NCBI GenBank assembly: GCA_902806065.1
Contig: CADCVE010000094.1
Span: 1-64,000 of the forward strand
DNA from: an uncultured Rubrobacteraceae bacterium
GTDB taxonomy: Bacteria; Actinomycetota; Rubrobacteria; Rubrobacterales; Rubrobacteraceae
Length of the DNA: 64,000 nucleotides
Direction of reading: 5' to 3'
Part shown: positions 15,907 to 64,000 of the stretch, one piece after another
Layout: each line of letters starts with the position of its first letter
Position numbering within the stretch: the first letter of the stretch is position 1
The notes under the pieces: generated by a model
Databases searched by the model: none
Told to the model about the DNA's origin: nothing
The model's input: only the letters and a program-made list of their open reading frames with translations
Made by a program: the position numbers and the translations under genes

Positions 15907-16953
15907 TTGCAGAGAATTCGTATACCCAAAGTGGGAGAGGGCTCGAGGGACCTGAACTCGAAGGCAAAGGAGAAGTTCTGGGCGCGGGATCTGCAGCCGG
16001 GCGTCAACCTGCGCTCGACCTTCCTCGCCACCGACGCGAACGTGCGCAGCGATAGTCGCGGAACGCCGTACCTCTCCCTAAAACTCGTGGACAAGACCGG
16101 CTCTGTGGACGCCCGCATGTGGCGGTTACCGTCCGAGCTCCTGAATGGCCTAGACGGCCCCGAGTACGTACATGCCGAGGGCCACGCCCACGAGTACCGC
16201 GGGATGCTCCAGGTAAAGCTCGACCGTCTGAAGGTACTCCACAAGACCGAGATAGAGGAAGAAGACTACCTGCCTGCCACCGAAGGAGACTGTCAATCCA
16301 TGTCCGCGGAGGTCATGGAGGCCGGACGAGAGTTCGAGGACGAGTACCTCCGGGAGCTCTTCGAGAGCATGGTCGCCGACGAAGCTCTATGGAGCGCGTT
16401 CTGCGCGGCGCCCGCCGCCAAGGCGATGCACCACGCCCGCGTCGGCGGCCTCCTGGAGCACTCGCTATACTGCCTGAGGCTCGCAAAGACCCTGGCGGAT
16501 ATGTACCCGGTAAACCGCGACTTGCTCCTCTTCGGGGCCATATTCCACGATGTGGGAAAGACGCAAGAACTCTCCTGGGAGGGCGGGTCTTTCTCCTACA
16601 GCACGCCGGGGCGTCTCCAAGGCCACGTAGTCCTCGGCGACCGCATAGTCGCCGCCCACATAGCCGCCATCCCCGGCTTCCCCGAGGAGCTTGCCCTGCA
16701 ACTCTCGCACATCATGCTCTCCCACCAGGGCGAGCTGGAGTACGGCTCCCCGGAACGGCCCAAGACCTTCGAGGCCCTGCTGGTCAACTTGCTCGACAAC
16801 CTTGACGCCCGGGCCGCTATGTTCGTGGAGACCACCCACAACGTCTCCCCTGGCGGCTGGAGTCACCATGAAAACCCTCTGCGTCGCGCCCTCTACATCC
16901 CGAACTCTATGACCTCCGACGAGGAACGCGCCGAAAGGGACGCCACGGGATAA
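15907..16953 (+). CDS. 3'-5' exoribonuclease, YhaM type (OB-fold plus HD domain)
   Basis: The 348-residue protein has an N-terminal OB-fold nucleic-acid-binding part (residues about 25-120: YLSLKLVDKTGSVDARMW, EGHAHEYRGMLQVKLDRL). An HD hydrolase domain follows, with HHARVGGLLEHS (near 178), FGAIFHDVGK (HD pair near 214) and MLSHQG. YhaM-type enzymes degrade RNA and some DNA from the 3' end. The TTG start lies one base after the permease stop, so it is transcribed with the importer, which is probably coincidental in function. Confidence 0.85.
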   Translation: MQRIRIPKVGEGSRDLNSKAKEKFWARDLQPGVNLRSTFLATDANVRSDSRGTPYLSLKLVDKTGSVDARMWRLPSELLNGLDGPEYVHAEGHAHEYRGMLQVKLDRLKVLHKTEIEEEDYLPATEGDCQSMSAEVMEAGREFEDEYLRELFESMVADEALWSAFCAAPAAKAMHHARVGGLLEHSLYCLRLAKTLADMYPVNRDLLLFGAIFHDVGKTQELSWEGGSFSYSTPGRLQGHVVLGDRIVAAHIAAIPGFPEELALQLSHIMLSHQGELEYGSPERPKTFEALLVNLLDNLDARAAMFVETTHNVSPGGWSHHENPLRRALYIPNSMTSDEERAERDATG

Positions 16954-23565: not shown

Positions 23566-23654
23566 GGAATGCGTGGGCCTGGTGGCCCGGCCGGTCTTCA
23601 AAACCGGTTTACGGGCGCGATGCGTCCGTGGCGGTTCGATTCCCCCGCATTCCG
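23566..23654 (+). tRNA. selC: tRNA-Sec (anticodon TCA)
   Basis: An 89-nt tRNA with an 8-bp acceptor stem (GGAATGCG with CGCATTCC, discriminator G). The anticodon loop CTTCAAA gives TCA, the variable arm is long, and the T-arm is GGTTCGATTCC. The 8-bp acceptor and the UCA anticodon identify selenocysteine tRNA. It lies 29 bases after selB. CCA is not encoded. Confidence 0.95.
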
Positions 23655-23717
23655 CTGTAATGGCGGTCAGCTATAGACTTTAGCACTCGGCCAAAAGCAA
23701 GGACGGTGCTGGGGCAG

Positions 23718-54830: not shown

Positions 54831-55889
54831 TTACGCTGCCGCGCCTTCGGGGATCAGGATGCCCCGTCCGCCGGGTATGCGGCCGTTGTTGAGGTCGTTG
54901 ACCGCGTCGTTGACCGCGTCGAGCGAGTAAGTAGTGGTTTGCAGGCTGACCTTGCCCTGGGCCTGTAGCGTCATAAGCTCGGCCAGGTCATTGTAGGTGC
55001 CGACCAGGTTGCCGACGATGTTGCGCTCGCTGGAGATGACGTCTATCGTTGGAACCTCTATGGTACCGCCGTAGCCGATGATGTAGTGAGAGCCGGCGCG
55101 CTTCGTGATGTTCCACCCGTCCTTCTCGGCGCCCATCTCGCCGACGAAGTCGAGCACGACCTCGGCGCCGTTGCCGTCGGTCATCTCTAGGATCTTGTCT
55201 ACGTGTGAGCCGTCCGCGAGGACGGTCTGGTCGGCGCCGAGTTTTTTGGCTACTTCCAGCGCCTCCTCGGAGCGATCCATGACGATGACCTCAGTGGCGC
55301 ACAGCGCCTTCAAGGACTGGATGCCGATATGACCCAGGCCTCCGGCCCCTATGACCACCGTCCGCGTCCCGGGGGGCAACATCGGCACTGCCTTCTTTAC
55401 CGCGTGGTAGGCGGTAAGCCCCGCGTCGGCGTGAGCGGCGACATCCTGAGGCTCCACGCCGTCGGGCAGTTTGATCACGGCCCGCGCGTTGGTCTTGAGG
55501 AGTTCCGCCATACCCCCGTCGGTGTCGATGCCAGGGAAGAGGGGGTTCACACAGTGCATGTCGTCCCCGTTACGGCACGCCCGGCACAGGCCGCAGGTGA
55601 TGTGCGGGTGCACGATGACAGCGTCGCCCACCTCGACGTTGGAGACCGCCGAGCCGACCTCGTGTACCCAGCCGGCGTTCTCGTGTCCCGGGGTGTAGGG
55701 TAGCTCTATGCCGACCAGAGGAGCCCACTGGCCCTCGATTATGTGCAGGTCCGTCCGGCAGAGGCCAGCTCCGCCGATGCGCACGATCACGTCCAGGGGA
55801 CCATCGGCTTTGGGTTCCTCCACCTCTTCGATCTTCAGCGGCTCGGTACCTATGTCCTCGTTGTACTCATACAGTCGCGCTGCTTTCAC
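54831..55889 (-). CDS. Zinc-dependent NAD(P) alcohol dehydrogenase of the monooxygenase cluster
   Basis: From GTG 55889, preceded by GAGGAGG, the 352-residue MDR enzyme has catalytic zinc ligands in GLCRTDLH and PGHENAGW. The structural-zinc set is CGLCRACRNGDDMHC and the nucleotide-binding loop VIGAGGLGHIG. It probably oxidises the alcohol produced by the diiron monooxygenase encoded to the right, as dehydrogenases do in actinobacterial propane-monooxygenase loci. Its start overlaps the DUF59 gene by 4 bases. It is last in the minus-strand arm. Confidence 0.9.
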   Translation of the reverse strand: MKAARLYEYNEDIGTEPLKIEEVEEPKADGPLDVIVRIGGAGLCRTDLHIIEGQWAPLVGIELPYTPGHENAGWVHEVGSAVSNVEVGDAVIVHPHITCGLCRACRNGDDMHCVNPLFPGIDTDGGMAELLKTNARAVIKLPDGVEPQDVAAHADAGLTAYHAVKKAVPMLPPGTRTVVIGAGGLGHIGIQSLKALCATEVIVMDRSEEALEVAKKLGADQTVLADGSHVDKILEMTDGNGAEVVLDFVGEMGAEKDGWNITKRAGSHYIIGYGGTIEVPTIDVISSERNIVGNLVGTYNDLAELMTLQAQGKVSLQTTTYSLDAVNDAVNDLNNGRIPGGRGILIPEGAAA

Positions 55890-56584
55890 GCGGTTGCCTC
55901 CTCGGGGTCTGGAATTCCATAACGGGTGGCCAGAAGCCCCCGGCACATCCCGGCGTTCCCTTCGATGCTCAACCGGGTTAGCCTGGCGAACCGGAGGTGA
56001 TCCACGACTGCCCCTTCGGGTACCGGGTTGCCGTCAGGATCCACCACGAGTGGCGCCTCTGGACACGTGTCTAGCCCAAGCTCCTCCCTGCGGCTCAGGT
56101 ACTTCTCCTTCGTCTCGGATGCTGGCACTTCTTCGAGCCGCATCCGCGCCAACTCCTTAGCGGAGCGTCCCGCCGCCAGGAGTTCCCGGCACAGGCGCTC
56201 CTGACGGGCGACGAAGGCCTTGCGGCGGAAGATGGTGCGTAACTCTTCCAGGCTCTCCCCCTCGGTGTCTCCGGGGAAGGTGCCCTCGAAGCCTCGCTCC
56301 TGCGCCATGCCGGCGTTGATCTCCGGGGAGGCGTGGTGGTCGTCCAGGATAATACGCGCTCTCTCGACGCCCGGTACCGACAGCACCGCCGCCTTGGCGT
56401 CCGCCACCATCAAGTAGGCGAAGTTGGGCGCGCAGAAGGGGGTTGGGAGCCTGAGCCGGACATCCACCTCGTCGTCCGCGACCTGGAGGTCGGCCACGAA
56501 CTTCAGGTCCGTGATCGGCTCGTCTAGCTCGGGGTCCCGGACGCCCGAAAGGGCGTCCAGGACCGCTGCCTCGGTAGGCTTCAC
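55886..56584 (-). CDS. DUF59/MIP18-family metal-sulfur assembly-like protein
   Basis: GTG at 56584 overlaps the TGA of the amidohydrolase gene and gives 232 residues. The longer open frame above it is antisense noise. The N-terminal 100 residues form the DUF59 domain: ALSGVRDPELDEPITDL, VRLRLPTPFCAPNFAY (conserved cysteine) and VERARIILDDHHASPEI. The C-terminal half is family-specific. DUF59 proteins help to insert iron-sulfur clusters or other metal centres. Here it may help mature the diiron hydroxylase or its ferredoxin; this is inference. Confidence 0.82.
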   Translation of the reverse strand: MKPTEAAVLDALSGVRDPELDEPITDLKFVADLQVADDEVDVRLRLPTPFCAPNFAYLMVADAKAAVLSVPGVERARIILDDHHASPEINAGMAQERGFEGTFPGDTEGESLEELRTIFRRKAFVARQERLCRELLAAGRSAKELARMRLEEVPASETKEKYLSRREELGLDTCPEAPLVVDPDGNPVPEGAVVDHLRFARLTRLSIEGNAGMCRGLLATRYGIPDPEEATA

Positions 56585-57615
56585 CGTACGGGAGCCTCCG
56601 GGTAGGTGTCCTCGCTGCCGGCGGCCACCGCTTCCGGCTGCGGGATTTCGGAGGGCACCTCGAGGTCGTACAAACGTGCGGCGTTGAGCCCCAGGACCTT
56701 GCGCTTTATGTCCGGGGTGAGCTGGTCGTACTCGTCCATCTCCTCGGGGATCTGGAAATCCACGAACTTCTCGACGAGCCACTTGGGCTGCCAGATAGCG
56801 TAATCGCTGGCAAAGAGGATGCGATCTTCGTCCAGCCAGTACAAAAGCTCGCCCATTATGCGCGCGAAGTACTTGGGCCTGGTGTGCATGAATGGCATTG
56901 CTACCGCCATGCCGGCGTAGACGTTGGGCTCCTGCACGGCGATCCAGCAGAAGTCCTCCAGCCGTGGCAACCCTATGTGCTCGACGATGAAGTTGAGGTT
57001 GGGGAAGAGAGACGCCGCCTCGTCCACGTCCGCGACATCGAACGCGTCCTTGTTCAAGGGCGTGATCGTCGGTCCCTTGTGGACGTGGATGTTCTTTATC
57101 CCTAGCTCCTCGCACTTCTCCAGGTGGCGTTTGGCCCACTCGTCCTTGAGGCTCCAGCCCTTCGATTGGCCGTTCCACTCAGCGGTGTAGAGCTTTACAC
57201 CCTTGAGGCTGTAACGGTTGGTCAGTTCCTCAAGATACTCCAAGCCTTGCTCGCCAGAGCGTGGGTCGAACGAACCGTTGAGGATGAACTTGTCCGGGTA
57301 CTTCTCCTTGAGCACCGCGTCCTGCTCGGTGGTGTTGAAGCCGTTTACGTAGAAGTCCTTGAGGTAGGTCGGTTGGAAGATAGCCTTGTCTACGTATCCG
57401 ATCTCGAAGAGGTCGTGCATCATGTCCTCTTCGGAGTACTTCTGGAATTTCTCCTCGGGCCAGAGGTACTCCTCGGGGCTCAAAGCGCTATGGTAGCCGT
57501 AGAAGCAGTCGATGAACTGCTTACCGTGGATGTTTGCCTGGTTCTCCGGGCTCCCGTCCCAGAAATGGACGTGCCCGTCTACCACGAAATACTTCTCGCC
57601 GTCTTTCTCGTACAA
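56581..57615 (-). CDS. Amidohydrolase-family protein of the monooxygenase cluster
   Basis: Start chosen at TTG 57615, nine bases after AAGGAG (57630-57625); the frame extends to GTG 57636. The 344-residue protein has the metal-binding motif VDGHVHFW (HxH), GIKNIHVHKGPT, FIVEHIGLPR and LFASDYAIW, as in amidohydrolase-2/ACMSD-like enzymes. Genes of this type accompany mimABCD and prmABCD operons in mycobacteria and rhodococci. Their reaction there is unclear and may concern assembly of the monooxygenase. Overlaps the next gene. Confidence 0.88.
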   Translation of the reverse strand: MYEKDGEKYFVVDGHVHFWDGSPENQANIHGKQFIDCFYGYHSALSPEEYLWPEEKFQKYSEEDMMHDLFEIGYVDKAIFQPTYLKDFYVNGFNTTEQDAVLKEKYPDKFILNGSFDPRSGEQGLEYLEELTNRYSLKGVKLYTAEWNGQSKGWSLKDEWAKRHLEKCEELGIKNIHVHKGPTITPLNKDAFDVADVDEAASLFPNLNFIVEHIGLPRLEDFCWIAVQEPNVYAGMAVAMPFMHTRPKYFARIMGELLYWLDEDRILFASDYAIWQPKWLVEKFVDFQIPEEMDEYDQLTPDIKRKVLGLNAARLYDLEVPSEIPQPEAVAAGSEDTYPEAPVR

Positions 57616-57636
57616 GGTGATTCTCTCCTTTCCCAC

Positions 57637-57882
57637 TACACCGCATAGGCGCAGCTAAACGATACATCCCCCGAGCTTCTACCTCTATACTGTGATTTGA
57701 GTTACACGAAAAAGGTATTCTGCCCAAACCAGATTAGAGGGTTTGCAATATTCCGGCGCCACCTCCTTTCCCTGACCGAAAACTGGCTGTTATTGTAACC
57801 AATACAGCATCTTCCTGCCACCGTCTCACTCGAATCGTGGCTTCCACTGTGTGGCGAGCGTGCTCCGCGTGCTATTGCTTCT
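57637..57882. other. Intergenic gap inside the minus-strand arm
   Basis: This 246-base gap between the ferredoxin and amidohydrolase genes is AT-richer than its surroundings and has no gene. On the minus strand a TATAGA-like -10 with a weak -35 lies near 57690, so a second start of transcription for the amidohydrolase-DUF59-dehydrogenase part is possible. No hairpin terminator stands out. Confidence 0.3.
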
Positions 57883-58248
57883 CTAGTACGGCCTCTCGAT
57901 CCACTCGGGTTCCGGGGTGATCTCCTCTTCGGGCTTGGCCCCCGCCTCGTTGGCCCCGGTACCGCTTACGGTCTGCAAGACTCGCACCTTCATGTCCTCT
58001 TCGCAGTAGATCTGGCACGAGAGCCGCACCTTCTCCAAAAGGTCACGCATCTCGAGGATCACCATCTCCGCCTGGGTCATCTCCTCGGGCTCACCCTCCA
58101 AAAACTCTACCTGACAGGTGGCGCACTTCGCGTAGCTCCCGCACACGTGCATAATGTCCACCTTCGCGTCCTCCTCGATAGCCAGGACCATCCGCTTACC
58201 GTCCTCGACGTCGAAGGTGCCTTCTCCCTCTACATCTAGCTTTGGCAT
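57883..58248 (-). CDS. 2Fe-2S ferredoxin
   Basis: The 121-residue protein has a plant/adrenodoxin-type cluster motif: C36, C42 and C45 (HVCGSYAKCATC) and C78 (RLSCQ), with another cysteine at C82. The tail is acidic and proline-rich. It can carry electrons to an oxygenase or dehydrogenase. It starts inside the end of the IclR gene (13-base overlap) and divergent to the hydroxylase. The cluster reductase already carries its own ferredoxin domain, so this extra carrier is unexpected. Confidence 0.88.
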   Translation of the reverse strand: MPKLDVEGEGTFDVEDGKRMVLAIEEDAKVDIMHVCGSYAKCATCQVEFLEGEPEEMTQAEMVILEMRDLLEKVRLSCQIYCEEDMKVRVLQTVSGTGANEAGAKPEEEITPEPEWIERPY

Positions 58249-59081
58249 CCGTCTCTCCTCTCGTTCCTCTGGAAAGCAACGTCTTCGAGCCGCGCCGAAG
58301 CCGCCCCGGCCGCCCGTTGGACCATCTCTATGAGCTGCGATCCTTCGCTCCGGATACGCCGGGCCGTGGTAGAGAGACCTATGGCGCCTTCCACTTTACC
58401 GCCCTGGCTCTTAACCGGCGCCGCCACGCCGCAGAGATTCTGCGTGAATTCTTCGAAGTCCGTAGCCACCCCCACCATGCGAACCTTGTTCAGGTGGGCG
58501 TGCAACTGGGCGGGCCGGACGATGGTTCGCGGCGTAAAGGCCTCCAGACCGTGATCGGCTATGTAGTCCTCCACGTATTCGGAGCCCATGTCAGCCAACA
58601 GCACTTTGCCCAACGCTAGCGCGTGGGAGGCGCCGTGAAATCCTTTCGCCACCCCCACGGGAGGGCTCCGCGGCGGGGATTTCACCTGCGTTACCTCCAC
58701 TTCCCCGCCCGATAGTACCGCAGCGTAGGCGTACCTCTGGGCGCGCCACGCAAGCTCCTCGACGACCGGCTCGATCCTGAGGTCGAAGTCGCTCTTGGAA
58801 CTCTCACTGAGCCTGGAGATGGCGGGGCCGATCCTGTAGCCCCCGCAACGAGGAACCTTCTCGATGTACCCCTCCTCAACTAGTATGTTGAGCAGGTAGT
58901 AGCAACTAGAGAGGTTGGTCCCTACCTCGCAGGCTAGCTCCTTCGCCGTCAACCTCTCACCTCGCTGGCTGACGAGGTCCATGATTCTGAAGACTCGCCG
59001 GACGCTCTTGAACTTGAGATCGCCCTGCTTCTCACCCATCAGGGAGTTGCTAGAGCCTCTGCCCTCATAATTGGGCTTCAT
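58236..59081 (-). CDS. IclR-family transcriptional regulator
   Basis: The 281-residue regulator has an N-terminal winged helix (SVRRVFRIMDLVSQRGERLTAKELACEVGTNLSSCYYLLNILVEEGYIE). An IclR effector-binding domain follows (GASHALALGKVLLA, FEEFTQNLCGVAAPV, GAIGLSTTARRI). It is transcribed divergently from the hydroxylase gene and leads the minus-strand arm, so it probably senses the substrate or a product and controls both arms. ATG 59081 is the likely start; ATG 59039 is possible. Confidence 0.92.
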   Translation of the reverse strand: MKPNYEGRGSSNSLMGEKQGDLKFKSVRRVFRIMDLVSQRGERLTAKELACEVGTNLSSCYYLLNILVEEGYIEKVPRCGGYRIGPAISRLSESSKSDFDLRIEPVVEELAWRAQRYAYAAVLSGGEVEVTQVKSPPRSPPVGVAKGFHGASHALALGKVLLADMGSEYVEDYIADHGLEAFTPRTIVRPAQLHAHLNKVRMVGVATDFEEFTQNLCGVAAPVKSQGGKVEGAIGLSTTARRIRSEGSQLIEMVQRAAGAASARLEDVAFQRNERRDGCQS

Positions 59082-59149
59082 CGATGCTTACCCCTAAACT
59101 CCTCTTCGCTTGCCCCTGCATCGCATTCTATCTTCTCTAACACACCGGG

Positions 59150-59189
59150 TTTTCCATTTTTCTGTGATTTTTTGCACATTGTTGGAAAA
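59150..59189. promoter_or_regulatory. Candidate operator between the two arms
   Basis: TTTTCCA at 59150-59156 and TGGAAAA at 59183-59189 form a perfect 7-bp inverted repeat with a 26-base spacer in the divergent intergenic region. IclR proteins bind palindromic sites near divergent promoters, so this is a candidate target for the regulator encoded to the left. The spacing is wider than usual. Confidence 0.3.
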
Positions 59190-59204
59190 AGCACACCTCG
59201 ATTC

Positions 59205-59233
59205 TTGTAGCTTTTGGCACTCGCTTCTATCAT
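59205..59233 (+). promoter_or_regulatory. Candidate promoter for the monooxygenase alpha-subunit gene
   Basis: TTGTAG (59205-59210), a 17-base spacer and TATCAT (59228-59233) form a reasonable sigma-70-type promoter. It would leave a leader of roughly 100 bases before the GTG at 59346. The inverted repeat at 59150-59189 lies just upstream. Confidence 0.35.
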
Positions 59234-59345
59234 GGCCCTACAAGTTAAAGAGGTAGCAAAGGGGGCGATAGGGGAATTAGGGGAAAAGGTAGTCCCAAAC
59301 TATAGTTACAGGGCGAGTCGTTTTCGAGAGGAGTGAGTAAAGCTA

Positions 59346-60983
59346 GTGGCGCGCAAAAGCGTTTCCAAGGCTCACGCGAAGATCCAGGAGCTTTCCTGGG
59401 AGCCGACCTTCGTAGAGAAGGATCCCAAGTACAAGACCGACTACACGTTCAAGGAGGGCGGGCAGAAGGACCCGATGAAGCAAGTTCTGCAGTCCTACTT
59501 CCCCATGCAGGAGGAGAAGGACCATCGGGTTTACGGCGCCGTTGACGCCGCGATCCGCGGGAACATGTGGCGTCAGGTGCAGCCGCGGTGGATGGAGTGG
59601 CAGAAGCTCTTTTTGAGCATCATTCCTTTCCCGGAGATATCGGCTGCAAGGGCGATGCCACTATTAACGGAGGCCGTGCCGAACCCCGAGATCCACAACG
59701 GGCTCGCGTTCCAGATGATCGACGAGGTAAGGCACTCGACGATTCAGATGAACCTCAAGCGCGAGTACATGAGGAACTACATCGACCCCGCCGGGTTCGA
59801 CATCACCGAGAAGGCTTTCTCCAACAACTACGCGGGGACCATCGGCCGCCAGTTCGGCGAGGGGTTCACCACCGGCGACGCTTTGACGGCGTGCAACATC
59901 TACCTGCAGGTCGTGGCGGAGACGGCGTTCACGAACACCTTGTTCGTGGCGATGCCGTCCGAAGCGGCTGCAAACGGCGACTATCTGCTGCCCACCGTGT
60001 TCCTCTCGGTGCAGTCCGACGAGTCGCGGCACATGAACAACGGTTACGGCACTCTCTTGATGGCGCTGGCCAACGACGAAAACAAGGACCTCATAGAGCG
60101 CGACCTTATCTACTCGATCTGGAACCAGCACGCCGTCGTGGACGCCGCGATCGGGACGATTATCGACTATGGTTCCAAGGACCGGCGTAAGGACCGCGAT
60201 AGCTACGCGGAGATGTGGAAGCGGTGGTACTACGATGACTACTATCGCAGCTACCTGGTGCCGCTCGAGAAGTACGGCCTGAAGGTCCCGCACGACGTCG
60301 TCGAGGACGCCTGGAGAAGGATCTCGGACGACTTCTACCACCACCACGTGGCCCAGTTCTTCGCCACCGGCTGGCCGGTCAACTACTGGCGCATCGATCC
60401 GATGACCGATGAAGACTTCGAGTGGTTCGAGAACAAGTACCCCGGCTGGTACGACAAGTTCGGCAAGTGGTGGGAGCACTACAGTTCGCTCTCCGAGCCA
60501 AACGGCCACAACCCGATAGCGTTCGAGAACACCGGCTACGTGTACCCACACCGCTGCTGGAGCTGCATGGTTCCGTGCCTGATCCGCGAGGACACCATCA
60601 TGGACTACGTGGACGGCCAGTGGAGGACCTACTGCCACAAGTGGTGCCACTGGCAGGACACGGTGGCCTACCGCGAGGAGTACAAGGGCCGTCCGACGCC
60701 CGCCATGGGCAAGATGACCGGCAAGCGCGAGTGGGAGTCCCTCTACCACGGCTGGGACCTAGCCGACATCCAGCACGACCTCGGCTATGTCCGCAGCGAC
60801 GGCAAGACCCTGGTCCCGCAGCCGCACGTCCAGTTCGAGCAGGACAAGATGTGGACCACGGACCACTGCAAAGGCATCGAGTTCCAGAGCCCGAACGTGC
60901 TGCTGAACGAGATGTCCGACGAGGAGCGCGAGAAGCACATGGAGGAGTACAAGCAAGGCTTCACCATCAACGACACTCTCTAG
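59346..60983 (+). CDS. prmA: Propane 2-monooxygenase-type diiron hydroxylase, alpha subunit
   Basis: The 545-residue protein carries all six diiron ligands of bacterial multicomponent monooxygenases: E97 (FPEISA), E127 and H130 (DEVRH), E192 (AETAF), E226 and H229 (DESRH). It oxidises small hydrocarbons or ketones with oxygen. Length and sequence (WRQVQPRWMEWQKLFLSIIPFPE, CWSCMVPCLIRED) match the actinobacterial propane-monooxygenase group (PrmA/MimA) rather than methane or toluene enzymes. The exact substrate is unknown. GTG start, GAGGAG ahead. Followed by a strong terminator. Confidence 0.93.
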   Translation: MARKSVSKAHAKIQELSWEPTFVEKDPKYKTDYTFKEGGQKDPMKQVLQSYFPMQEEKDHRVYGAVDAAIRGNMWRQVQPRWMEWQKLFLSIIPFPEISAARAMPLLTEAVPNPEIHNGLAFQMIDEVRHSTIQMNLKREYMRNYIDPAGFDITEKAFSNNYAGTIGRQFGEGFTTGDALTACNIYLQVVAETAFTNTLFVAMPSEAAANGDYLLPTVFLSVQSDESRHMNNGYGTLLMALANDENKDLIERDLIYSIWNQHAVVDAAIGTIIDYGSKDRRKDRDSYAEMWKRWYYDDYYRSYLVPLEKYGLKVPHDVVEDAWRRISDDFYHHHVAQFFATGWPVNYWRIDPMTDEDFEWFENKYPGWYDKFGKWWEHYSSLSEPNGHNPIAFENTGYVYPHRCWSCMVPCLIREDTIMDYVDGQWRTYCHKWCHWQDTVAYREEYKGRPTPAMGKMTGKREWESLYHGWDLADIQHDLGYVRSDGKTLVPQPHVQFEQDKMWTTDHCKGIEFQSPNVLLNEMSDEEREKHMEEYKQGFTINDTL

Positions 60984-61020
60984 ATTACCTCGGTCCGGCT
61001 AAAATTTAGCCGGGAAGCTA

Positions 61021-61057
61021 AAGAGGAGCGGCCGGATTGCCCGGCCGCTCCTCTTTT
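61021..61057 (+). terminator. Strong hairpin terminator or attenuator between alpha subunit and reductase
   Basis: AAGAGGAGCGGCCGG (61021-61035) pairs perfectly with 61041-61055 over a five-base loop and runs into TTTTCTT. A smaller hairpin (CCGGCTA with TAGCCGG, 60995-61013) precedes it. The hairpin lies 38 bases after the prmA stop and would stop or thin transcription before the reductase gene. Confidence 0.8.
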
Positions 61058-61156
61058 CTTACATCATGCGTTCGGATTCCGATATTGTAGGAATTTCTGA
61101 ATCGTTTTGTGCATATGCATACATATTCTAACATTGAAGGAAACGTCAATTTCGTT

Positions 61157-61185
61157 TTGACCTGGATACTTTTCGTATGTAAGAT
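61157..61185 (+). promoter_or_regulatory. Candidate second promoter before the reductase gene
   Basis: TTGACC (61157-61162), a 17-base spacer and TAAGAT (61180-61185) form a good sigma-70-type promoter in an AT-rich stretch between the terminator and the reductase gene. A 10-bp palindrome TGCATATGCA lies at 61110-61119 upstream. It would start transcription about 70 bases before the reductase ATG. Confidence 0.45.
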
Positions 61186-61260
61186 CACATTCGAAAGGGG
61201 ATCATAAGCTAGTTGGCGGTGGGGTAATTCTAGGCGGGAAAGGAGTTGGGTAGCCGGGTC

Positions 61261-62388
61261 ATGGGCAAGGATAAGAAGCACAAGGTTTACTTTGAGCCGG
61301 TAGACATCGAGATCGAGGCGGGCGAGGAAGAGACCGTGCTCGACGCGGCGTTCCGGCAGGGTGTAATGTTGATGCACGGGTGCAAGGAAGGGCAGTGCGC
61401 GGCGTGCAAGGCGTTTTTGTTGGACGGCGATATGGATATGGACCACTTTTCCACCTTCGCGCTCAACGAGTTCGAGGAAGAGGAGGGGTACGTACTTTTG
61501 TGCCGGGCCCACGCCTACAGCGATCTGGAAGTCGAGCTTATCGGCTACCACGAGGACATGCTGCAAACGGGCATCCCCCTACAGCGGATCACCGCCGAAG
61601 TCGAAGAGATCGAAGACCTCACCCACGACATAAAGCGCCTGGTGCTCAACCTGGTGGATCCACCGGAGATGCAATTCCTCTCCGGGCAGTACGCCGAGCT
61701 TTACATCCCCGGAACCCAGGAACACCGGGCCTACTCCATGTCCAACACCCCGACCGACGACGGCCGCGCGGAGTTCATCATCAGGGTATACCAGGGGGGG
61801 CGGTTCTCCGATGACCTGCTAGACAAAAAGCTCGAGGTTGGGGACAGCATCACGATTAGTGTCCCCTATGGTGTGTTCACGCTGCGCGAGAAGTCCGATG
61901 GTGATCTCATCTTCGTCGGGGGAGGCTCCGGCATGGCGCCGATACTGTCCATCCTCAGGCACATGGCCGAGAACGGCATCGAGCGTAACGCGACCTTCTA
62001 CTACGGGGCCAGGACAAAGAAGGATCTCTTCTACCTGGACGAGATACAGGAACTGGGCGAGCAGTTGCCCGGGGAGTTCAAGTTCGTGCCAGTCCTCTCC
62101 GAGCCCGAAGAGGACGACGAGTGGGACGGGGAAACAGGTATGGTCACGGACGCGATCAACGACCTCGAGGACGACCTGAGCGGGATGGAGGCCTACATGG
62201 CCGGCCCGCCACCCATGATCGACGCCGCCATACCGGTGCTCACGAACCTGGGCCTCGGAGAAGAGCACATCTACTACGACAAGTTCACCCAGACGTCGAA
62301 GATGGAAGAGGGAGAGGAGCAGGGGGAAGAGGCAGCGGGGCAGGGAGTAGAGAGCGGGCCAGAGTTCCCCGGAAAGGCCGAGGAGTAG
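61261..62388 (+). CDS. prmB: Monooxygenase reductase (2Fe-2S, FAD, NAD(P)H)
   Basis: The 375-residue electron-transfer protein has a ferredoxin domain at the N terminus with C41, C46, C49 and C81 (HGCKEGQCAACK, LLCRAH). An FAD-binding domain (RAYSMSN) and an NAD domain (FVGGGSGMAPILSIL, MAGPPPMID) follow, with an acidic tail. It passes electrons from NAD(P)H to the hydroxylase. The frame is open to TTG 61246; ATG 61261 is preferred since that TTG touches the AAAGGAG sequence. Confidence 0.92.
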   Translation: MGKDKKHKVYFEPVDIEIEAGEEETVLDAAFRQGVMLMHGCKEGQCAACKAFLLDGDMDMDHFSTFALNEFEEEEGYVLLCRAHAYSDLEVELIGYHEDMLQTGIPLQRITAEVEEIEDLTHDIKRLVLNLVDPPEMQFLSGQYAELYIPGTQEHRAYSMSNTPTDDGRAEFIIRVYQGGRFSDDLLDKKLEVGDSITISVPYGVFTLREKSDGDLIFVGGGSGMAPILSILRHMAENGIERNATFYYGARTKKDLFYLDEIQELGEQLPGEFKFVPVLSEPEEDDEWDGETGMVTDAINDLEDDLSGMEAYMAGPPPMIDAAIPVLTNLGLGEEHIYYDKFTQTSKMEEGEEQGEEAAGQGVESGPEFPGKAEE

Positions 62389-62566
62389 GACCTTAGGCGA
62401 GGTACAAGCACTTTGCCCGCGCTCGAACGGAGGAAGGGCATAAAAAGCATATTACGCTTTGGTAGGGAGTACAGCCATACCGATGGGAAAGGGGGTGGTG
62501 CATTACGTAGAGTTTTCTTAGTGGGGTAGACAGCAGTGCGGAGAAATCAGGGAAAGGAGGTCGCTT

Positions 62567-63709
62567 TTGAGTGAACTAGCGCCAGAAGGAAGAGCATTTA
62601 CAAAGGGGTTAGGAAGAGGAGACAGAAGCATACCCCAGATAATGCTGACGGATGCTGAAGCGGGCGCGGCTGAGTTCGCGGGCTCTGACAGCCGGTCCTA
62701 CAACTACTTCGAACCCAAAAAGCGTCGCGCGACCAAGTACGAGGATGTAACGTTAGACGTTCAGCCCGATCCCGAGCGTTATCTTACCCAAAGCTGGATT
62801 CTGGGTTGGGCCAACGGAGATCTGGGGTACGACCCCAAGTGGACGAAGATACAGTCCTCCGATTGGCACGCGTTCCGCGATCCCAACGAGGAGTGGGAAA
62901 AGACGATATACATCAACAACTCCAACTCCGTACGCCAGGTCACGAACGCCATCGAGAACGCCCAGTCCGAGAACGTCTTCCAGTACTGGAACAAGAGTTG
63001 GCTTCCGATCATCGCCAAGCACGTCAGCGCCTGGGCGCACGCCGATTACGGGATCGGGATGTACGTCTTCTTGCCCGCGCAACGGGCAGCCCCAACCAAC
63101 ATGCACAACAACGCCATAGCCGTGAACTGCATGCACAAGCTGCGCACCTCCCAGGACATCATGCTCTACAACATGGAACTGATGGACGTCTTCGGAGACG
63201 AGTTCGATGGGGAGGTACACAAGGAGACCTGGCTCGAGGACCCGTCCTGGCAGGGCGTGCGGGAGAACGTCGAGCGCCTGATGAACGCCAAGGACTGGGC
63301 CGAGACCACCTTCGCCTCCAACATCGTCTTCGAGCCGCTGGTGGGCGATTTGCTCCGCAGCCAATTCGTAGCGCGGTTCGCTCCTCCGCACGGCGATTCT
63401 CTGACCCCCTCGGTGATAAGCGTAAGCCAGGCGGAGTTCACTGAGCGCGACCTCAATTATACGAGAGATATGATGACGGAATTCCTCGAGGATGAGACGC
63501 ACGGGGAAGAGAACAAGCAGCTCATGGAGGGGTGGCTCGAAGAGTGGGTCCCCTACAGCATGCAGGCGGCCAAGGGGCTCGAGCCCATCTGGTCCGAGCC
63601 GGAGGTGCAACCAGTGAGCTTCGAGGATTCGTTCGAGCAGGTCAAGAACCGGTTCGAGGGTATCCTCTCTGACCTTGGACTGCGTGTACCGGAAGGGGCG
63701 ACCCGATGA
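62567..63709 (+). CDS. prmC: Monooxygenase hydroxylase, beta subunit
   Basis: The 380-residue structural subunit of the diiron hydroxylase has no metal ligands of its own. It shows GRGDRSIPQIMLTDAEAGAAEF, the TQSWILGWANG region, WNKSWLPIIAKHVSAWAHADYGIG and LVGDLLRSQFVARFAPPHGD, as in PrmC/MimC proteins. TTG start with AAAGGAGG ahead. It overlaps the coupling-protein gene by 4 bases. The gap before it (62389-62566) holds no gene. Confidence 0.92.
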   Translation: MSELAPEGRAFTKGLGRGDRSIPQIMLTDAEAGAAEFAGSDSRSYNYFEPKKRRATKYEDVTLDVQPDPERYLTQSWILGWANGDLGYDPKWTKIQSSDWHAFRDPNEEWEKTIYINNSNSVRQVTNAIENAQSENVFQYWNKSWLPIIAKHVSAWAHADYGIGMYVFLPAQRAAPTNMHNNAIAVNCMHKLRTSQDIMLYNMELMDVFGDEFDGEVHKETWLEDPSWQGVRENVERLMNAKDWAETTFASNIVFEPLVGDLLRSQFVARFAPPHGDSLTPSVISVSQAEFTERDLNYTRDMMTEFLEDETHGEENKQLMEGWLEEWVPYSMQAAKGLEPIWSEPEVQPVSFEDSFEQVKNRFEGILSDLGLRVPEGATR

Positions 63710-64000
63710 GCGAAGAGAAGACCCAAGATGGGAAGGGGCAGGAGTTCGACCGCTCCGCGTCGGACAAGTGCGGGGTTACGATGAGCGCCAGCGTCGAAGG
63801 CAACGCCATCGCCGAGCTCATGGGCGAGAAAGAGGGGATAGAGGTCACCAAGTACCCGGCCATGATCCGGATCGACGGTGGCAAGATGATGGAGTTCGAC
63901 ATGGCGGAGATCGCCGAGCATCTGGGCGAGGAGGAGTTCACCACTGCCGACTTCGAGGTCGAGACGTCGACCCACTACGGGCGGATGGCGCGCCTCGACG
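63706..64000 (+). CDS. prmD: Monooxygenase coupling (effector) protein, cut by the window end
   Basis: 98 codons are visible, starting at ATG 63706: MSEEKTQDGKGQEFDRSASD, then CGVTMSASVEGNAIAELMGE, VTKYPAMIRIDGGKMMEFDMAEIAEHLGEEEF. The pattern fits the small coupling proteins (PrmD/MimD type) that bind the hydroxylase and gate its oxygen activation. Its start overlaps the beta-subunit stop. The 3' end is outside the window. Confidence 0.85.
   Translation, partial: MSEEKTQDGKGQEFDRSASDKCGVTMSASVEGNAIAELMGEKEGIEVTKYPAMIRIDGGKMMEFDMAEIAEHLGEEEFTTADFEVETSTHYGRMARLD

Follow-up and report, generated by a model that had tools for sequence, protein, structure and literature searches.

The window, i.e., the whole 64,000-nucleotide stretch of Rubrobacteraceae DNA analysed here, carries at its right end a monooxygenase locus arranged in two divergent arms. 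The plus-strand arm follows the order alpha–reductase–beta–coupling and encodes a 545-aa hydroxylase alpha subunit of the PrmA/MimA type (59346..60983; PF02332, 2.4e-60; typed by ligands and tree), a prmB/mimB-type reductase with Fer2, FAD and NAD domains in Pfam (61246..62388; NCBIfam MmoC model 1.5e-83, below the curated cut-off), the hydroxylase beta subunit (62567..63709; PF02332, 7.4e-49) and an MmoB/DmpM coupling (effector) protein (63706..64000, ending at 64095 outside the window; PF02406, 4.4e-21). The minus-strand arm is composed of an IclR-family regulator (58236..59081; PF01614 and PF09339), a stand-alone 2Fe-2S ferredoxin (57883..58248; PF00111) whose first 13 bases lie within the end of iclR, and a trio of an amidohydrolase (Amidohydro_2, 56581..57636; PF04909, 1.8e-46), a DUF59/FeS_assembly_P protein (55886..56584; PF01883, 7.5e-18) and a zinc alcohol dehydrogenase, ADH (54831..55946; PF08240 and PF00107). 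The DUF59 protein has a conserved C-terminal extension in a 45-row alignment; the listed GTG start of the ADH overlaps the DUF59 gene, and the true start may be further in. All di-iron ligands of the alpha subunit are intact (E97, E127, H130, E192, E226 and H229), as placed by alignment to the 4gam methane monooxygenase alpha chain. The reductase keeps the four cysteines of its own Fer2 domain. Open reading frames, Pfam matches and the 4gam alignment bear out the gene content and directions of both arms given in the earlier note, and its overall description of a propane-monooxygenase-type locus with an unusual split, an extra ferredoxin and an IclR switch stands.

Phylogeny assigns the window locus to the group-5 (PrmA/MimA-type) soluble di-iron monooxygenases. 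In a tree built without the named sequences of M. smegmatis, RHA1 and TY-5, the 14 Rubrobacteraceae alpha subunits fall into a single clade (97/96) whose sister group (90/90) is made up of 28 other actinobacterial rows. They stand apart from the rows labelled groups 2, 4, 6 and thm. Placement in a well-studied group, which the earlier note named as counting against its reading, holds as far as group 5; a characterised member of the Rubrobacteraceae lineage itself was not met in the literature searched. Gene order varies strongly among the Rubrobacteraceae loci. Thirteen of the 14 have iclR divergent from alpha, the contig of the remaining one ending inside alpha, and the ferredoxin gene lies behind iclR in 8/14. 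The trio is present in seven of the 14 loci, on the iclR arm in two (the window and L110) and downstream of the monooxygenase in five. The oddity of the window is that the trio, too, sits on the iclR arm, while a divergent iclR is standard in the family; the layout that the earlier note had singled out is common among close relatives in its divergent regulator and ferredoxin, and uncommon in its trio. Its other premise, that accessory genes normally lie downstream on the same strand, agrees with the position of the amidohydrolase in 60 of the 72 non-Rubrobacteraceae loci and with the usual arrangement of prm/mim loci described in PMC4428276.

One palindrome, TTTTCCAACAnTGTTGGAAAA, recurs in the Rubrobacteraceae loci in the iclR–alpha gap, before the reductase gene and beside the amidohydrolase or GroEL gene. 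It occupies the iclR–alpha gap in 12 of the 13 loci having both genes and is lacking in L108. The 21-bp predicted IclR operator of the window, TTTTTGCACATTGTTGGAAAA (59169..59189), is the sole match to the stricter pattern in the whole genome, and a matrix scan places a second, weaker operator-like site (17.6 bits) before the reductase gene (61124..61144). The matrix, trained on the iclR/alpha-gap sites, of which 11 are distinct, scores 32 sites at 10 bits or more in 21 family loci versus 1.6 in shuffles; only the 20 sites outside that gap are independent, and these lie upstream of the reductase (6), adjacent to the amidohydrolase or GroEL gene (13) or upstream of the gene for the small protein of about 110 aa described below (1). 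The palindrome is not enriched in the 72 non-family loci (4 sites versus 2 in one shuffle). The idea that other actinobacterial prm loci share this regulator was rejected on this ground and because an IclR match was found in 16 of the 72, at 29–36% identity (52% in L040).

A predicted alpha promoter, TTGTAG-17-TATCAT (59205..59233, plus strand), places the operator centre at about -61. Taking the best -35/-10 pair within the search range, the pair stands at a near-fixed distance from the operator in 12/12 cases, with the operator centre at -59 to -62. The regulator has both the HTH_IclR and IclR_C domains and matches the NCBIfam PcaR/PcaU/PobR model at 1.5e-25, below the cut-off. Since copies of the palindrome accompany separate gene blocks, the separated parts resemble a single IclR regulon. 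The IclR-family protein would bind the palindrome between iclR and alpha, some 60 bases before the predicted alpha start site, a position expected of an activator; this location fits activation but does not prove it. The copies before the reductase gene and beside groEL would bring those blocks under the same control.

Downstream of alpha, a terminator-like hairpin with a 16-bp stem (61020..61056, plus strand) was identified; the segment 60995-61065 folds at -47 kcal/mol (z -9.1). Comparable hairpins follow alpha in 10/12 family loci versus 2/71 others. A promoter-like TTGACC-17-TAAGAT precedes the reductase gene (61157..61185, plus strand), although matches of this kind are near chance (4 found, shuffle mean 2.6). 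Together, the hairpin and the second promoter-like site argue against a single polycistronic prmABCD transcript: alpha may be transcribed alone, up to the terminator, and reductase–beta–coupling from the second promoter.

The contig runs on to 67,468, and about 0.9 kb past the window's edge at 64,000 lies a minus-strand Cpn60 (GroEL-like) gene (about 64,881-66,540; 1.2e-74). The absence of a GroEL-like gene, as stated previously, was a window-edge effect and is rejected. A protein of about 110 aa is encoded by one copy on each side of the Cpn60 gene. Its AlphaFold model is all-helical (mean pLDDT 85.8); no Pfam match was found for three copies, structure searches gave weak results (Foldseek best E 3.5, VIA-align Z 5.3), and distant relatives (27–37% identical) occur in gene contexts giving no clue.

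Cysteines 36, 42, 45 and 78 of the stand-alone ferredoxin are invariant in 16/16 rows. Across 296 genomes of the phylum, matches to the ferredoxin family came from 22, all of them Rubrobacteraceae. The 13 rows of monooxygenase-linked ferredoxins group in a single clade (99/97), apart from 20 unlinked rows defined by having no locus gene in the stretch examined; the genes around one unlinked ferredoxin (luciferase-like oxidoreductase, M20 peptidase, Yip1, DUF4097, cupin) suggest no function. Two candidate roles were set aside: a regular part of prm loci, given no stand-alone copy in the 72 other group-5 loci, and, for the window, replacement of a damaged reductase cluster, given the intact Fer2 cysteines. 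In G023 the monooxygenase is present and no ferredoxin match was found in the genome. Sister clusters, termed type II and known from two loci on short contigs, have the order alpha–beta–coupling–Rieske; neither a reductase of the PrmB type between alpha and beta nor any other linked reductase was seen on those contigs. One of them (G000:C71) has a broken ferredoxin copy and an altered Rieske motif.

The reductase would pass NADH electrons to the di-iron centre, and the ferredoxin, encoded next to iclR, may be an additional carrier; in type II clusters it is possibly the main one. The linkage and the clade suggest such electron transfer, and the dedicated clade and the reductase-less sister clusters are indirect signs of the second electron route proposed earlier. 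That the ferredoxin instead has another partner enzyme, for instance an oxygenase encoded elsewhere or the second ADH-family protein, or that it senses redox state together with IclR, is possible but rather unlikely. In the window, the ferredoxin gene and iclR overlap, the reductase already has a ferredoxin domain, and a second ADH-family gene (29–35% identical to the window ADH) follows the ferredoxin gene in L105, L107, L110 and L113; however, the clade was found solely beside monooxygenase-locus genes, and the L109 and L189 copies lie away from iclR, downstream of the coupling gene.

The amidohydrolase–DUF59–ADH trio behaves as a separable module. It was found in 16 genomes without any PF02332 match, a status that rests partly on draft assemblies, and in G024 it lies about 1.3 Mb from the monooxygenase. 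The amidohydrolase tree shows 7 changes between the linked and free labels, of which at least 5 are forced. In six monooxygenase-free genomes the trio is accompanied by this IclR and its palindrome; in others it stands without them. Five other enzyme-free family genomes (G002, G003, G012, G014 and G032) have the trio with neither an IclR match nor a palindrome, and in the seven enzyme-free genomes outside the family no palindrome and just two weak IclR matches were seen. Among loci around palindromes away from alpha, eight of nine have iclR–palindrome–trio; of 21 palindrome positions outside monooxygenase loci, 10 were inspected, the remaining 11 all having two mismatches. Because the trio also occurs without IclR and palindrome in several enzyme-free genomes, any control of it by IclR is not general. 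The window trio, which follows the ferredoxin without an operator of its own, is probably read through from iclR.

This distribution bears on two further readings. One would have a group-5 hydroxylase plugged into an older IclR–amidohydrolase–DUF59–ADH circuit through operator copies before each new block, fed by a dedicated ferredoxin relay replacing the flavin reductase in type II; the five enzyme-free family genomes with the trio but neither IclR nor palindrome make it less likely, and we hold it as a tentative idea at most. The other takes the amidohydrolase and DUF59, with the ferredoxin, as a maturation kit for the hydroxylase metal centre, DUF59 loading iron or Fe-S with ferredoxin electrons. 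DUF59 is an Fe-S assembly family (with weak PaaD similarity, far below the model cut-off), the trio is common in group-5 loci, and DUF59 is present in 60/72 non-family loci in all orientations. Against it, none of these 72 loci has the ferredoxin, and the trio persists where no PF02332 match was found and lies far from the monooxygenase in G024, so the DUF59–ferredoxin partnership raised in the earlier note is disfavoured and the kit improbable.

The reading we prefer, at a probability of about 60%, is that the Rubrobacteraceae group-5 locus is a dispersed IclR regulon, with the ferredoxin as an extra carrier and the trio as a separable catabolic module that in several relatives stands under the same IclR without a monooxygenase; in the window, the monooxygenase would feed it. 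A standard prm locus that had only been rearranged locally, its regulation being unrelated and the palindrome belonging to a different factor, would suit the variable gene order and the trio's place on the iclR arm in just 2/7 loci, but is very improbable given that the palindrome tracks blocks in differing positions and is rare elsewhere, that iclR is divergent in 13/14 loci, and that 8 genomes have the palindrome in the gap from iclR to the trio.

We regard the predicted palindrome regulon, the post-alpha hairpin, the ferredoxin clade, the trio without the enzyme and the reductase-less sister type as new. In the open-licence literature searched (top matches, titles and abstract openings), no account of the ferredoxin, the operator or the enzyme-free trio was found, no description of IclR-operator/ferredoxin-relay wiring for group-5 enzymes, and no tested role for amidohydrolase or DUF59 beside prm/mim. 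The occurrence of amidohydrolase, DUF59 and ADH in enzyme-free genomes, some under the same switch, argues for product metabolism rather than enzyme assembly, which is testable. A monooxygenase in soil-crust Rubrobacteria is reported without a determined function in PMC7901476, and the common predicted operator offers an assay for its natural inducer. The dedicated ferredoxin and the clusters without a reductase gene suggest another electron supply to a useful hydroxylase.

Among known systems, prmABCD of Rhodococcus/Gordonia and mimABCD of Mycobacterium/Actinomycetospora share with the window the alpha–reductase–beta–coupling order and intact di-iron ligands, as well as amidohydrolase, DUF59, ADH and GroEL in the locus (layouts in PMC4428276, PMC5445863 and PMC7176365). 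The window alpha is 71–76% identical to the alphas of the 72 non-family loci, and by analogy with these relatives its substrate may be propane or acetone. The window locus differs in having an extra ferredoxin, a trio placed on the divergent arm, a GroEL gene on the opposite strand, and an IclR regulator in place of the Fis-family regulator reported for Rhodococcus and Mycobacterium. BCP1 prmABCD is reported as one polycistronic unit, whereas the window alpha is followed by the terminator-like hairpin and second operator-like site. IclR-family activators of catabolic genes (PcaU/PobR group) share the IclR_C and HTH_IclR domains but have different target genes; the predicted operator of the window, upstream of -35, would suit such an activator. 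Type II clusters resemble toluene-4-monooxygenase-type systems, which use a Rieske ferredoxin plus a separate reductase, in that they carry a Rieske gene and lack a PrmB-type reductase at the place between alpha and beta, and differ in their group-5 alpha and in lacking a linked reductase in the two short contigs. The best solved relatives of the ferredoxin, at weak similarity (E 8e-5), are putidaredoxin and terpredoxin, which share its four-cysteine 2Fe-2S pattern. Ferredoxins of this type carry electrons to P450 oxygenases; the partner of the window ferredoxin would, unlike theirs, be a di-iron hydroxylase.

Gene calls and Pfam bear out the gene content read earlier in this propane-monooxygenase-type locus, with alpha, reductase, beta and coupling genes on the plus strand and iclR, a 2Fe-2S ferredoxin and an amidohydrolase–DUF59–alcohol dehydrogenase (ADH) trio on the minus strand. 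The most striking negative of the earlier note, the absence of a GroEL-like gene, was a window-edge effect: the contig (C94; 67,468 bases in a 3.75-Mb genome, the window being bases 1-64000) carries this gene on the minus strand at about 64,881-66,540, with an unnamed protein of about 110 residues on each flank. The same genome (G000) holds a second cluster of this monooxygenase family on contig C71. The locus is a genuine variant, specific to this family, of a system already known, and its surroundings hold more than was first seen. A selenocysteine tRNA gene lies at 23566-23655 of the window. The uncharacterised ~110-residue protein (C94, 64192-64530 and 66999-67322, outside the window) occurs in 14 other Rubrobacteraceae genomes at 43% identity or more and adjoins monooxygenase-locus genes in 15 of 15; its gene is often divergent from an amidohydrolase or groEL gene and separated from it by the palindrome described below, and distant copies lie elsewhere.

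Of 99 related genomes, a set that includes that of the window, 13 had an alpha match; longer stretches from the 12 others, the window contig and C71 gave 14 Rubrobacteraceae loci. A genome-contig scan, of which the best 80 of 127 loci were used, gave eight Rubrobacteraceae loci close to the window (alpha 85–91% identical) and 72 others, several on short contigs, so that absences there are partly missing data. Thirteen of the 14 family loci have iclR divergent from alpha; in the remaining one, C71, the contig stops inside alpha. The ferredoxin lies behind iclR in eight, downstream in two (the C71 copy broken), and is absent from the fetched stretch in four: G029 and G021, where it sits on a separate contig together with the genes for the small protein and GroEL, G001, where a tandem pair lies beside the trio on C186, and G023, whose whole genome gave no match. 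The trio, present in seven, shares the arm of iclR in just two of them, the window and L110, and is downstream in five, including the window's closest relative, L103. Divergent iclR, usually with ferredoxin, is therefore the family rule, and the position of the trio is local. Among the 72 non-family loci (from the best 80 of 127; several contigs short), same-strand downstream genes include the amidohydrolase in 60 and GroEL in 59, and a window-type ferredoxin is found in none.

An alpha tree of 50 rows groups all 14 from Rubrobacteraceae in a single clade (97/96), whose sister group (90/90) comprises 28 actinobacterial rows, two Rhodococcus plasmid records among them; we take the plasmid records apart from the Rubrobacteraceae clade to be groups 2, 4, 6 and thm. 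A separate pair inside the family (99/100), termed type II (G000:C71 and G001:C184), has alpha, beta, coupling and Rieske genes, with no reductase between alpha and beta. A PrmB-type reductase (E 1e-40) is matched in G000 solely by the window copy and nowhere in G001, an absence that is provisional because the assembly is 87% complete. C71 is weakened as a working type II example by its broken ferredoxin and by its Rieske protein (L007:3187-3522), whose second ligand motif is CPQC versus CPWH in the G019 homologue.

The window ferredoxin retains four cysteines, and its solved relatives are putidaredoxin and terpredoxin (E about 1e-4). Its family was matched in 30 of 39 Rubrobacteraceae genomes and in 22 of a sample of 296 phylum genomes, every one Rubrobacteraceae. 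Among 33 full-length rows, a single clade (99/97) unites the 13 that adjoin monooxygenase-locus genes; the other 20 fall outside it, with no locus gene in flanks of 6–12 kb (16 copies) or 2–3.4 kb (four). Ferredoxin and reductase-domain HMMs revealed no stand-alone ferredoxin in the 72 non-family loci (best 80 of 127), three short matches lying at contig ends that cut through reductases. Two tandem ferredoxins of the linked clade (G001:C186, 50-821; L194) adjoin amidohydrolase–DUF59–ADH–GroEL in a genome whose sole alpha found is type II. Second copies lie beside the Rieske gene in two genera (L007:3577-3935, G000:C71; L113:11907-12265, G019:C12); they align over 367 bases gap-free at 72% identity and share an identical frame break near codon 58, and each half, read in its own frame, shows purifying selection (dN/dS 0.14 and 0.30). 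Either programmed frameshifting or parallel decay may account for the shared break. C71's copy additionally contains an in-frame stop, and a remnant of another copy, split over two frames, lies at L007:161-329.

Gap alignment placed a 21-bp palindrome, the predicted IclR operator, between iclR and alpha in 12 of 13 loci, at 59169-59189 in the window, where shuffles gave no matches. A stricter pattern matched once in the whole genome, and a looser one gave 62 strand matches in 23 of 39 family genomes versus 7 for the reversed control. Run over the 231,620 bases of 21 family loci, a symmetric matrix built from 11 distinct iclR/alpha sites (cut-off 10 bits) found 32 sites versus 1.6 in local shuffles: 12 in iclR/alpha gaps, 6 in alpha/reductase gaps, 13 beside amidohydrolase or GroEL and one upstream of the small protein. 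In the 72 non-family loci (from the best 80 of 127) it found 4 versus 2 shuffled. The window contig has operator-like sites at 59169 (32.4 bits) and 61124 (17.6), plus one beyond the window end at 66882 (20.8); the ferredoxin–amidohydrolase gap has none over threshold, and a marginal match at 16540-16560 (11.6 bits) is probably chance. A predicted -35/-10 pair follows the operator by 14-15 bases, placing the operator centre at -59 to -62 relative to the predicted alpha start, in 12 of 12 loci; as the pair was picked as the best within the search range, the fixed spacing rather than the pair itself is the evidence. Class I activators usually bind near -60.

The alpha–reductase gap spans 168–572 bases in 11 family loci; in 71 non-family loci its median is 83, with values running from -30 to 232. 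Ten of 12 family loci, versus 2 of the 71 others (both sets of 71 from the best 80 of 127), have a terminator-like hairpin 3' of alpha, the window's folding at -47 kcal/mol (z -9.1); a general terminator scan with different limits gave matches at chance level.

The trio also occurs away from the monooxygenase. Ten of 21 palindrome positions distant from monooxygenase loci were examined in nine fetched stretches, and in eight the palindrome separates divergent iclR (54–58% identical) from amidohydrolase–DUF59–ADH; the ninth, L253, lacks iclR and all trio genes. Six of these eight genomes have no PF02332 match and two (G010, G030) have one elsewhere. In these two Rubrobacteraceae genomes the match is to a different PF02332 monooxygenase (G010:C11:76812-80076 and G030:C39:20035-23299; E about 1e-76), which in G010 lies some 55 kb away from the trio. 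In G017 three extra genes lie between palindrome and trio, and a second site directly precedes the amidohydrolase. A glyoxalase-family gene near iclR in G017 and G013, two cases only, fits a C3 route through methylglyoxal.

Thirty of 296 phylum genomes had a match to the DUF59 profile, and 19 of the 30 lack PF02332, a count assuming that both searches covered the same 296, as equal size and listed members suggest. The trio is side by side in 16 of these 19 (nine Rubrobacteraceae, seven others); contig ends cut ADH in G050, where gene order also differs, and the amidohydrolase in G103, and G004 is a fragment. A monooxygenase-type GroEL adjoins the trio in G015 and G020, which may be incomplete. 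Neither IclR nor palindrome was found near the trio in G002, G012, G032, G003 and G014 (the enzyme-free status of the last two rests on the alpha search), nor any palindrome near it in the seven PF02332-free genomes outside the family; such genomes disfavour general IclR control of the trio. In G024 the trio lies about 1.3 Mb from the monooxygenase, and across the 43 rows of an amidohydrolase tree the state, linked or free, switches 7 times, with well-supported branches forcing at least 5 of these.

Most likely, inducer-bound IclR would activate the alpha, reductase–beta–coupling and groEL blocks, electrons from NADH would enter via the reductase, the dedicated ferredoxin serving as an additional carrier, and the monooxygenase product would pass to the trio. 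For soil-crust Rubrobacteria MAGs, PMC7901476 has already published a propane-monooxygenase assignment, as assignment only. In Rhodococcus BCP1, according to PMC4428276, prmABCD forms a single polycistronic unit; the divergent regulator belongs to the Fis family, and genes for a metal-dependent hydrolase, a metal-sulfur cluster enzyme, ADH and GroEL lie downstream. Relatives are described as required for growth on propane (PMC11057499) or as induced on acetone along with GroEL, ADH and amidohydrolase (PMC7176365).
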